A DNA stretch of 6,890 bases from a bacterium (GTDB taxonomy: Bacteria; Coprothermobacterota; Coprothermobacteria; Coprothermobacterales; JAADFF01), in assembly GCA_027063755.1 (NCBI GenBank), contig JAMORD010000101.1, positions 1-6,890 on the forward strand, in the 5' to 3' direction. Below the pieces are notes generated by a model, which was given only the letters and a program-made list of their open reading frames with translations, made no database searches and was not told the origin of the DNA. Below are positions 1,524 through 4,284 of the stretch, piece after piece. The position numbers and the translations under genes are program-made. Each line of letters starts with the position of its first letter. Within the stretch, counting starts at the first letter, position 1.

Positions 1524-2030
1524 TTACGCCTCCAGCAATTTTATAAACTTCTTCATCCACACATGGAGATCTCCCGGATGACGGGACGATACCCAGTTTT
1601 CATCAACCACAACAGGTTCATCAACATACTCTACCCCTGATGCAATAAGATCATCTCTTATTCCTGCATACGATGTACCCTTTCTTCCCTTAATAATACC
1701 GGCAGAGATAAGTACCTGAGGCCCATGGCATATTGTAGCAACAGGTTTGTCCTTTTCAAAGAAATGTTTAACAATAGATTTAACGCTATCGTAGAGCCTT
1801 ACCTTCTCGGGTGCCCTTCCACCGGGAATGACAAGAGCATCATATTCTTCAGGATTGACTTCATCAAACGATATATCCGCCTTTATAACATAACCATGTT
1901 TGCCTTCCAGTCTACCCCTCTCTGGGGCTGCAATAACAACATCGTATCCATCTTCTTTCAGCCTATAGTAAGGATACTGAACCTCTATATCCTCAAAGAA
2001 AGGCCCTGTAATAATAAGCACTCTCTTCAC
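1524..2030 (-). CDS. PfpI/DJ-1 family protein (class I glutamine amidotransferase-like)
   Basis: At 168 residues it is the length of Pyrococcus PfpI and is similar throughout, notably in GLEGKHGY-like, VNPEEYDALVIPGGRAPE and GRKGTSYAGI blocks. The nucleophile elbow AT-ICHGP gives Cys101 and His102, with the acidic Glu13 that flanks the cysteine in this superfamily. The SSRHPGDLHVW segment (148-158) is the usual C-terminal signature. Members have been described as proteases, glyoxalases or deglycases, and the true cellular substrate is debated, so I give no specific activity. It starts at GTG 2030, with GGAGGTGA well placed upstream; the GTGA overlap with the stop of the membrane-protein gene indicates translational coupling. 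The stop is 2 bases before the next start. A reactive-cysteine protein beside Fe-S genes could serve thiol protection or repair, but this is inference. Confidence 0.93.
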   Translation of the reverse strand: MKRVLIITGPFFEDIEVQYPYYRLKEDGYDVVIAAPERGRLEGKHGYVIKADISFDEVNPEEYDALVIPGGRAPEKVRLYDSVKSIVKHFFEKDKPVATICHGPQVLISAGIIKGRKGTSYAGIRDDLIASGVEYVDEPVVVDENWVSSRHPGDLHVWMKKFIKLLEA

Positions 2031-2452
2031 TCCGCTTCACCTCCATCATAAAGGGTCTTCTCCCAATATGCAATCAACTCTTCTCCCCTCTGCCTATCCT
2101 CCGGCGACAAAGACTCCAGAAACGCATCTTTTACGCGGAGCACCCTCTTTACAACAGACAGCGTAGGAAACGCTATATAAGGTTTTCCAGTATTCATCGT
2201 CATAATAAGCAAGACAAGATAGACAATTACCAGCAGAACCGATACACCTGCCGTTATAACAGCAAGTGAAGTTAAAAACATCATAAATGTCATATTAGAC
2301 GGTGGAAAAAGCCACAGCCACAAAAACGACAAAAGAGACAGAACACCACCGGTAGCTATAATGACCGTCAGCAGTCGTGCTCTATCTATAGCCTTTTTAT
2401 CAATAAATGCCAGTAGTAGACGATAGGAATCCTTACGCTCCAAGTCCGACAT
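2027..2452 (-). CDS. Small two-helix membrane protein, function unknown
   Basis: I do not recognise this 141-residue protein. It has a charged N-terminal arm (1-26), a first hydrophobic segment (about 27-49, rich in Leu, Trp and Phe), a short PPSN turn, a second hydrophobic segment (about 56-86), and a charged C-terminal tail (about 100-141). Arg and Lys residues just before helix 1 and after helix 2 suggest both tails face the cytoplasm, with a short outer loop. There is no signal peptide cleavage motif and no cysteine, so it cannot itself be a thiolate cluster ligand. The start at ATG 2452 lies inside the end of the NifU-like gene (20-base overlap). AAGGTG close upstream and AAGGAG 13 bases upstream are both possible ribosome binding sites. 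Its stop overlaps the PfpI start. The tight packing makes it a true operon member, perhaps a membrane anchor for the cytosolic partners. Confidence 0.85.
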   Translation of the reverse strand: MSDLERKDSYRLLLAFIDKKAIDRARLLTVIIATGGVLSLLSFLWLWLFPPSNMTFMMFLTSLAVITAGVSVLLVIVYLVLLIMTMNTGKPYIAFPTLSVVKRVLRVKDAFLESLSPEDRQRGEELIAYWEKTLYDGGEAE

Positions 2453-3074
2453 TGTTCACCTTAATCTCCTTTACACCAGGAAGCACACTAACTTTCTCCT
2501 CTATCTCATGTTTTATCTCATCAAGATATGGATCTTCTTCATCAAAGGCAATATCTATAGTTACAACCCCGTCTTCTACACCAATGTACTTTACCCGTTT
2601 AGCAGAAACAATATCCACACCAAGAGGAGGATATATAACATGATACAGTTCTCCTCTAACAAGATCACTGTTAAGATCCTCCGGTTTTATACGCCCCTCT
2701 TTCATAAGATAGTGTCTAATGGCAGCTCTAAGCCCATCAACGGCAAGCACAGAGCAGTGATACTTAATAGGTGGAAGACCTCCCAATTCATCAACGGCCT
2801 TCTTCCATGTAATATTCATAGCCTCATCAATCGTCTTTCCCTTGGCAAGTTCCGTGATAATAGATGCTGTTGCAATATTGGAAGCACATCCAAAAGACTC
2901 AAACTTGATATCTTCTATTTTCTCCGTCTCCGGGTCTATCTTCAGATAAATAGCAACCTGGTCGCCACAGGCAGGACTACCAACAACAGCCTCCGCATCG
3001 GGATTCTCTATACGTCCCAGGTTCCTTGGGTGAAGAAAGTGGTCAACAACCTTCTCATTGTATTTGATTGCCAT
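2433..3074 (-). CDS. NifU/IscU-type Fe-S scaffold fused to a MIP18/DUF59-like domain
   Basis: Residues 1-125 are a full IscU/NifU-N scaffold. The opening YNEKVVDHFLHPRNLG is typical, and the cluster ligands are all present: Cys36 and Asp38 in ACGD, Cys63 in FGCASN, and Cys107 in HCSVLA. GGLPPIK before the third cysteine matches the family. It should therefore assemble an Fe-S cluster. After a linker, residues about 144-213 resemble the MIP18/DUF59 family: PPLGVDIV, then VEDGVVTIDIAF, then LPGVKEIKVNNV. The TPxCP-type cysteine of that domain is replaced (EEDPYLDE), so the domain has no cysteine. Classical NifU instead ends in an Nfu domain with a CxxC, absent here. The gene starts 13 bases after the NifS-like stop, with GGGAG upstream, and overlaps the following gene. 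The scaffold call is firm; the second domain is a pattern match by eye. Confidence 0.93.
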   Translation of the reverse strand: MAIKYNEKVVDHFLHPRNLGRIENPDAEAVVGSPACGDQVAIYLKIDPETEKIEDIKFESFGCASNIATASIITELAKGKTIDEAMNITWKKAVDELGGLPPIKYHCSVLAVDGLRAAIRHYLMKEGRIKPEDLNSDLVRGELYHVIYPPLGVDIVSAKRVKYIGVEDGVVTIDIAFDEEDPYLDEIKHEIEEKVSVLPGVKEIKVNNVGLGA

Positions 3075-3087
3075 ATAACATCACTCC

Positions 3088-4284
3088 CTACCTTTTATAT
3101 ATTTCTGGTGCAATCGGACTTCTTTTCCTCAGCGTGGCAACAATCTCAGGTGCCACATCAAGAAATCTCTTTACATCTTCCTCTGTGTTATACCATGAGA
3201 GTATTAGTCTAATAGAGCCATGTGCTCTTGCATAATCGTTGTAAAGGGCTAAGATAACATGGTTTGCCTGAAGGAATGGGTTAGCACATGCAGAACCAGT
3301 ATCAAGAACAATACCATTCATATCAAAATACATCTGCACTGCCTCGCCCTCAATATACTTAAATGTCACGCATACATTAGATGGACTACGATGCTCTGGC
3401 CATGGTCCATTAATTTGAACTTCAGGAATACGCTCCAGTAGGCCATCAAAGAGCATTTTTTGAAGTTTTTTCCTTTTCTCATACTTTTCTTCATAATCCT
3501 CAAGCAAAATCTGTAGTGCCTTCATGCCACCACGAATAGTAGGAATATCAGGCTTGTCTTGTGTAATATCAAAATGCTTGACAGTACCCCACACCACAGG
3601 TACTACCGATACACCACTTCTAACCCACAACACGCTTGAGTTTCTTGGACCATGTATTCTATGAGCATCGGTAAATACTACATCGGCAAAATCTGCGTAC
3701 TTCCATCGGGGCGTATGTCCCAGCGAACGAGTAGCATCTATAACAAATCTTACATCGTCTTTTCTCTCTTTTATAGCTCTACCAATAGCAGGAACATCTT
3801 GAACAGTACCTACCATGAAGTTGACATCGGCCATAACCACCATTGCCGTATTATCCTTGATGGCATTTTTTACATCATCAGGTGATACCAGTCCATCTTC
3901 AGATACCTTAAGATATGTTACCTCAGCCATACCGGATTTTTCCAGTTTTCTCAATATGGCAAGAACAGTAGAACCTGCCTCTATTTCGGTAGTAATAATA
4001 TGCGGCTTAGTATCATGCTTTTTATAATACGCCTCTACAATACCTCTAATGGCAACATTGGCAAGCACCACTTCACTAGCACCAAACTGGACCTCTTCAG
4101 GTTTTCCTCCAAAGAATTTAGCCCATACAACCTGAGCTTCTTCTATGGCCTCTTGTGCCTCGGTCCCCGTTGATGTAAATGGTGCCGGTGACCAATACTT
4201 TTCGGTCATCCATATATTCATTTCTTTTATCACTTCAGGATCAACGAATGTACTACGACAGTGGTCAAAGTATACTCTTTTCAT
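3088..4284 (-). CDS. NifS/IscS-like protein lacking the PLP lysine (predicted non-canonical desulfurase homologue)
   Basis: Length (398 residues) and overall layout are those of NifS/IscS cysteine desulfurases: fold-type I opening (YFDH..STFVDPEV), GASE (68-71) in the phosphate-binding GATE position, GTVQ (159-162), VIDATRSLG (181-189), the cysteine loop TGSACAN with Cys333, and SIRL (357-360) with the substrate-carboxylate Arg359. The cofactor site is altered. In the SAHK motif the sequence is DAHR, so Arg209 (AGA codon) replaces the lysine that forms the PLP Schiff base. Ala103 replaces the histidine that stacks on PLP, and Arg186 replaces the glutamine contacting the ring. The mobile loop and cysteine survive. 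Desulfurase activity is therefore unlikely; a role as structural or thiolate partner of the adjacent scaffold is more plausible. It is the first gene of the operon, with GAGGAGGG 6 bases before ATG 4284. Homology is certain; the altered function is inferred. Confidence 0.94.
   Translation of the reverse strand: MKRVYFDHCRSTFVDPEVIKEMNIWMTEKYWSPAPFTSTGTEAQEAIEEAQVVWAKFFGGKPEEVQFGASEVVLANVAIRGIVEAYYKKHDTKPHIITTEIEAGSTVLAILRKLEKSGMAEVTYLKVSEDGLVSPDDVKNAIKDNTAMVVMADVNFMVGTVQDVPAIGRAIKERKDDVRFVIDATRSLGHTPRWKYADFADVVFTDAHRIHGPRNSSVLWVRSGVSVVPVVWGTVKHFDITQDKPDIPTIRGGMKALQILLEDYEEKYEKRKKLQKMLFDGLLERIPEVQINGPWPEHRSPSNVCVTFKYIEGEAVQMYFDMNGIVLDTGSACANPFLQANHVILALYNDYARAHGSIRLILSWYNTEEDVKRFLDVAPEIVATLRKRSPIAPEIYKR

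Follow-up and report, generated by a model that had tools for sequence, protein, structure and literature searches.

Cysteine desulfurase is usually regarded as the indispensable sulfur donor of ISC-type iron-sulfur (Fe-S) cluster assembly, and the roles of the residues that make up its PLP site are established for the IscS family. IscS proteins that lack the catalytic lysine are already known from Archaeoglobus fulgidus and, as IscS1, from Methanosarcina acetivorans. The A. fulgidus protein (AfIscS) has Asp199 at the lysine site, which was confirmed against the sequence of PDB entry 4EB5, and passages in two later papers describe it as being without desulfurase activity and as giving a cysteine ligand (Cys321) to the cluster on IscU (PMC7585200, citing Marinoni 2012 and Pagnier 2014; PMC9769115), much as stated in a preliminary description of the locus presented here. 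In a figure legend of the second paper, the 4EB5 complex is drawn with PLP bound to AfIscS despite the missing lysine (PMC9769115). In M. acetivorans, the essential lysine is reported missing from IscS1, which is encoded in an iscSU cluster; this organism also carries two sufCB clusters and an IscS2 that is functional (PMC7585200). Two-component machineries without dedicated carriers have also been described in anaerobes under the names MIS (Minimal ISC System) and SMS; MIS is described with a cysteine desulfurase, while SMS relies on SmsCB and can be supplied by sulfide, which suffices for this minimal system (PMC12192291). What is new here is an order of bacteria whose sole detected Fe-S assembly system includes a lysine-less IscS. 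The combination of retained and lost residues, in which a substrate-type arginine (Arg359) is kept, and the fusion of IscU to a DUF59-type domain are new as well.

The window, meaning the whole stretch of 6,890 nucleotides that was analysed, corresponds to contig C101 in an assembly of 1.5 Mb that is 88% complete, and it belongs to the Coprothermobacterales, a heat-loving, deep-branching bacterial order. The features of the locus are as follows, with E. coli numbering for the equivalent positions.

3088..4284 (-): iscS/nifS homologue, 398 aa, without the PLP lysine (PF00266, 136.5 bits; AlphaFold2 model similar to IscS/NifS structures)
4066..4071 (-): Val72-Val73, at the T76-E77 positions (alignment)
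3976..3978 (-): Ala103, at the position of the PLP-stacking histidine H104; genus-specific, His in Coprothermobacter
3814..3819 (-): Phe156-Met157, at the N155-E156 positions (alignment)
3736..3738 (-): Asp183, kept equivalent of D180, the ring-nitrogen aspartate (alignment)
3727..3729 (-): Arg186, where E. coli has Gln183 and Coprothermobacter has Trp
3661..3669 (-): Asp206-Ala207-His208, at the S203-G204-H205 positions, the phosphate-binding Ser being replaced by Asp (alignment)
3658..3660 (-): Arg209 (AGA), replacing the Schiff-base lysine K206 (alignment; Arg invariant across the order)
3286..3288 (-): Cys333, mobile-loop cysteine (C328; C321 in AfIscS), invariant across the order
3208..3210 (-): Arg359, substrate-type arginine that is kept here, although AfIscS and the other lysine-less clade have lost it
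2433..3074 (-): iscU, 213 aa, NifU_N scaffold domain and C-terminal DUF59-type domain (PF01592, 148.1 bits; PF01883, 42.7 bits)
2967..2969 (-): IscU Cys36, cluster ligand position (alignment)
2886..2888 (-): IscU Cys63, cluster ligand position (alignment)
2754..2756 (-): IscU Cys107, cluster ligand position (alignment)
2457..2660 (-): FeS_assembly_P/DUF59-type extension of IscU, residues 139-206 (PF01883; present order-wide)

The frame at 3088-4284 (-) translates without interruption into a 398-aa protein that contains VVFTDAHRIHGPR. Its membership in the class-V aminotransferase fold is apparent from the PF00266 match and from the AlphaFold2 model (pLDDT 78, pTM 0.80, with six sequences in the alignment), which matches IscS/NifS structures over the full length with Z of about 40-41, including 40.0 for 4EB5. 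Confidence in the model drops below a pLDDT of 50 at residues 28-39, 232-242 and 330-352, the last of which takes in the Cys333 loop. Against the NCBIfam equivalog models, the protein stays below the cut-offs for both NifS (269.8 vs 530.75) and IscS (204.2 vs 643.2). AfIscS is among its closest PDB sequence matches, at 33% identity only. The top PDB sequence matches (9wep, 9wer, 9wew, 9wf8, 9wfb, 9wfe and 9wfy) are seven highly similar 406-aa cysteine desulfurase sequences that carry the lysine and vary among themselves at a few active-site positions.

Both a codon-by-codon reading and the alignment to E. coli K-12 IscS agree with the preliminary description that DAHR stands in place of SAHK, with AGA encoding Arg209; the range it quoted for this motif, 3654-3662, does hold the arginine codon but is one base off the codon register. 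The alignment pairs Arg209 with K206, Ala103 with H104, Arg186 with Q183 and Cys333 with C328, and the retention of Cys333 (in GSAC) and Arg359 (in SIRL), also claimed earlier, is borne out by their codons. Substitution of the PLP site extends further, through T76 to Val72, E77 to Val73, N155 to Phe156, E156 to Met157, S203 to Asp206 and T243 to Lys244, so that the PLP contacts T76, H104, N155, Q183, S203 and T243 are all replaced (V72, A103, F156, R186, D206 and K244). By alignment, the phosphate cup and the ring contacts of this protein are thus largely dismantled, with Asp183, Cys333 and Arg359 kept. Lys244 was considered as a compensating lysine, which is unlikely, as the order has Thr or Ala at this position and the lysine is not conserved.

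All six Coprothermobacterales homologues, which come from two families and from separate assemblies, one of them an isolate genome, have arginine at the lysine position, and Cys333 and Arg359 are kept in the same six. The nearest relative of the window protein (91% identity) is encoded by a metagenome-assembled genome deposited as "Dictyoglomota bacterium"; this sister genome (L036, JAADFF010000092.1) is grouped by the genome collection in the order of Coprothermobacter. The next relatives, at 49-51% identity, belong to Coprothermobacter-type genomes of the same order, including C. platensis DSM 11748. The three coordinated cofactor-site changes that had been proposed are all present in the window protein, but only the Lys-to-Arg replacement is order-wide, as Ala103 and Arg186 are limited to the window's genus and Coprothermobacter has His and Trp, respectively. 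The Coprothermobacter homologues also have Glu in place of His205 (E. coli numbering). The TGSACAN segment around Cys333 is invariant across the order, whereas neighbouring catalytic residues vary.

In the comparison with the sister species, dN/dS was 0.053 in iscS and 0.018 in iscU; no other window gene with usable dS had a value this low (the HD-GYP gene was saturated and was left out of this ranking), and the window iscS is under strong purifying selection. The presence of this arginine in six independently assembled genomes, together with this dN/dS value and the open frame, rules out a sequencing error or a pseudogene, in keeping with the earlier argument, and no close homologue within the order turned out to carry lysine at this site. 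An order-wide IscS without the residue needed for desulfuration is real.

A wider survey covered the top IscS-like matches from 290 genomes. Lysine-less homologues were found in 13 other bacterial genomes, of which eight have Gln at the site, two have Arg, and three have Asp, His or Thr, each of these residues occurring once. Wherever the genomes of these other homologues were checked (G167 and G268 were left out), a lysine-bearing NifS was also present. All 13, like AfIscS, have lost the substrate arginine and mostly kept the phosphate cup, and the Coprothermobacterales clade shows the reverse: AfIscS retains the phosphate-cup T, E, S and N as well as the stacking His and has GTLLL where the arginine was lost, while the window clade has lost the cup and kept Arg359. 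In the maximum-likelihood tree, the Coprothermobacterales homologues form a clade with 100/100 support. Twelve of the others form a separate Q/R/H/T clade, also at 100/100 (L014, L020, L084, L103, L106, L112, L116, L126, L132, L135, L137 and L141). Members of the Q/R/H/T clade keep the loop cysteine, and many adjoin iscU; they share with the Coprothermobacterales proteins the missing lysine and the loop cysteine, and differ in also being without the substrate arginine. The best tree groups Coprothermobacterales IscS with AfIscS at a support of 28/0, and AU tests gave p 0.41 for all lysine-less proteins as a single clade, so that one common loss was not rejected, and p 0.52 for this order with the Q/L clade. 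One of the two lysine-less proteins scanned, L014, exceeds the NCBIfam NifS equivalog cut-off (540.1 vs 530.75), so automatic annotation would label a lysine-less protein as an active desulfurase.

As in A. fulgidus (PDB 4EB5/4HVK), the replaced lysine and the kept loop cysteine of the window protein are accompanied by an adjacent iscU with intact ligands. The scaffold motifs of IscU are all present (Cys36, Asp38, Cys63, His106-Cys107 and LPPIK, cf. LPPVK), and iscU immediately follows iscS at all six loci of the order. The window IscU is 97% identical to that of the sister species and 71-73% identical to those of Coprothermobacter. It differs from the A. fulgidus system in its DUF59-type C-terminal domain. 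Among 84 IscU ORFs (a count that includes repeat fetches of the same places), a match to this extension was found outside the order in a single genome only, G009. The G009 IscU with the matching extension (L012 2651-3433) adjoins a lysine-bearing IscS.

Searches across the seven genomes of the order yielded neither a SufB/D core nor an A-type carrier, and the control genomes were positive for both; no second Fe-S system was found in the form of the SUF core and A-type carriers. iscU is single-copy in six of these genomes, and the iscU/iscSU locus was not found in the seventh, G005, which is 78% complete. The order resembles MIS in having IscS and IscU with neither SUF nor A-type carriers, but the catalytic lysine of the desulfurase is absent; it differs from SMS in that SmsCB is absent from its genomes, and from M. 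acetivorans in that it has no SUF and in that no second desulfurase was found in two genera. A PF00266 search recovered a lysine-bearing desulfurase-family protein in three Coprothermobacter genomes only (G002, G004 and G005), where it is of the TIGR01977 type and is encoded far from iscU. In G000, G001 and G003, which represent two genera and are incomplete genomes (88, 93 and 95% complete, respectively), the same search did not find a cysteine desulfurase with the lysine. Other class-V matches in the window's genome were considered as desulfurases and set aside because their sequences read as different enzymes, namely a subunit of glycine dehydrogenase, a decarboxylase of the Orn/Lys/Arg type and an aminotransferase of class I/II.

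With respect to sulfur metabolism, cysteine-synthase homologues are encoded in six genomes of the order, each scoring below the family cut-off, and Mrp/NBP35-type ATPases in five. MnmA has the C-type CxxC...C pattern in all six genomes read, out of seven in the order. C-type MnmA is associated with [4Fe-4S]-dependent thiolation, and such thiolases accept inorganic sulfide in vitro (PMC11784392, PMC10067955); in addition, reduction of thiosulfate to sulfide has been reported for C. proteolyticus (PMC10356935). The MnmA proteins of the window's genus (L155 and L156) are without the CC motif that Coprothermobacter has, and the cysteines of the one in the window's genome are those of CxxC...C only, resembling the CC-less C-type variant of Campylobacter and Helicobacter.

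The best explanation, to which we give a probability of roughly two in three, is that the window protein is a desulfurase-dead IscS kept as a structural or cluster-ligand partner of IscU, with sulfide as the likely sulfur source. Because AfIscS, with Asp199, is reported to have no activity and to give a cysteine ligand, and because SMS uses sulfide, we infer that the window IscS performs no PLP-dependent desulfuration, that it forms a complex with IscU, that Cys333 ligates or gates the nascent cluster, and that sulfide feeds Fe-S assembly in the order. A former IscS/NifS-type cysteine desulfurase would have lost its PLP-dependent chemistry and been retained for IscU. On the pattern of the complex between IscS and IscU from A. 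fulgidus, the dimer of IscS would dock two IscU molecules, and Cys333 on the mobile loop would reach the assembly site, where Cys36, Cys63, Cys107 and Asp38 of IscU would hold the nascent cluster and Cys333 would either complete its coordination or gate the entry of sulfide. Sulfide from an anaerobic, sulfide-generating physiology would replace the cysteine-derived persulfide. A structural or ligand partner, or the use of an external sulfide source, had been suggested from the locus alone, and this best available reading is strengthened by the genomes, through the lack of SUF, the three genomes in which no lysine-bearing desulfurase was found, the C-type MnmA and the cysteine-synthase homologues. 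Also in its favour are the invariant Arg209, the lost PLP-site residues, the low dN/dS of iscS and iscU, the six adjacent iscSU pairs, the intact ligands of IscU and the thiosulfate reduction of C. proteolyticus. The three Coprothermobacter genomes with a second, lysine-bearing desulfurase-family protein speak against it, as this protein could supply sulfur in trans, and so do the retention of Arg359 and Asp183 and the incompleteness of G000, G001 and G003.

Such supply is central to the main rival explanation, in which Cys333 carries sulfane sulfur from another donor to IscU and the protein acts as a sulfur-transfer adaptor rather than as a ligand donor; candidate donors are polysulfide, a rhodanese and, in genomes that have it, the TIGR01977-type desulfurase. 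The order-wide invariance of Cys333 and its loop would fit this relay, as would the lysine-bearing protein of the three Coprothermobacter genomes, but that protein is encoded far from iscU and no counterpart was found in G000, G001 and G003. We regard the relay as unlikely overall, possible in Coprothermobacter and less so in the window's genus. Invariance of Cys333 and TGSACAN, set against the variation of the neighbouring catalytic residues, also makes it improbable that the protein is purely a pseudoenzyme, a platform that serves IscU, and perhaps delivery partners too, in a structural or regulatory capacity and in which Cys333 has no direct chemistry, even though a retained fold with an eroded PLP site is what such a platform would look like.

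A residual or altered PLP enzyme, holding PLP non-covalently or binding a small ligand through Arg359, Arg209 and Asp183 for some other chemistry, is more improbable still. Arg359 and Asp183 are kept, and AfIscS has lost its arginine, so some ligand may still bind; moreover, the legend to the 4EB5 figure shows PLP in a protein that has no lysine (PMC9769115). However, the equivalents of T76, E77, N155, Q183 and S203 are lost from the window protein, whereas AfIscS keeps the T, E, N and S.

Extending the preferred reading of a desulfurase-dead IscS to a whole bacterial order that makes its Fe-S clusters with an IscU-DUF59 protein, this IscS and sulfide, at least two of its genera having no cysteine desulfurase, is tentative, and we hold it at somewhat less than even odds. 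If true, bacteria would have an equivalent of the sulfide-based Fe-S assembly of archaea, arrived at through the ISC rather than the SUF lineage. If the desulfurase activity has been lost, this would show that sulfide can sustain an ISC-type system in living bacteria, and the order would offer a natural system for testing whether the loop cysteine acts as a ligand, as has been proposed. Our literature search, which left subscription journals mostly outside, found no biochemical evidence or prior report on cysteine desulfurase or iron-sulfur assembly in Coprothermobacter.

Finally, the gene that follows iscU in the window's genus is different from the one in Coprothermobacteraceae. In the window, 2027-2452 (-) encodes a 141-aa protein that is membrane-like by eye and begins with a 20-base overlap just after iscU; it is 80% identical in the sister species, was not seen in Coprothermobacteraceae neighbourhoods, and has no match in Pfam or NCBIfam. 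In Coprothermobacteraceae, the gene after iscU encodes a flavodoxin-like protein (L044 4574-5083 (-); also L037, L038 and L049) that weakly matches menaquinone-dependent protoporphyrinogen IX dehydrogenase (E 1.8e-4) and may donate electrons for cluster assembly.
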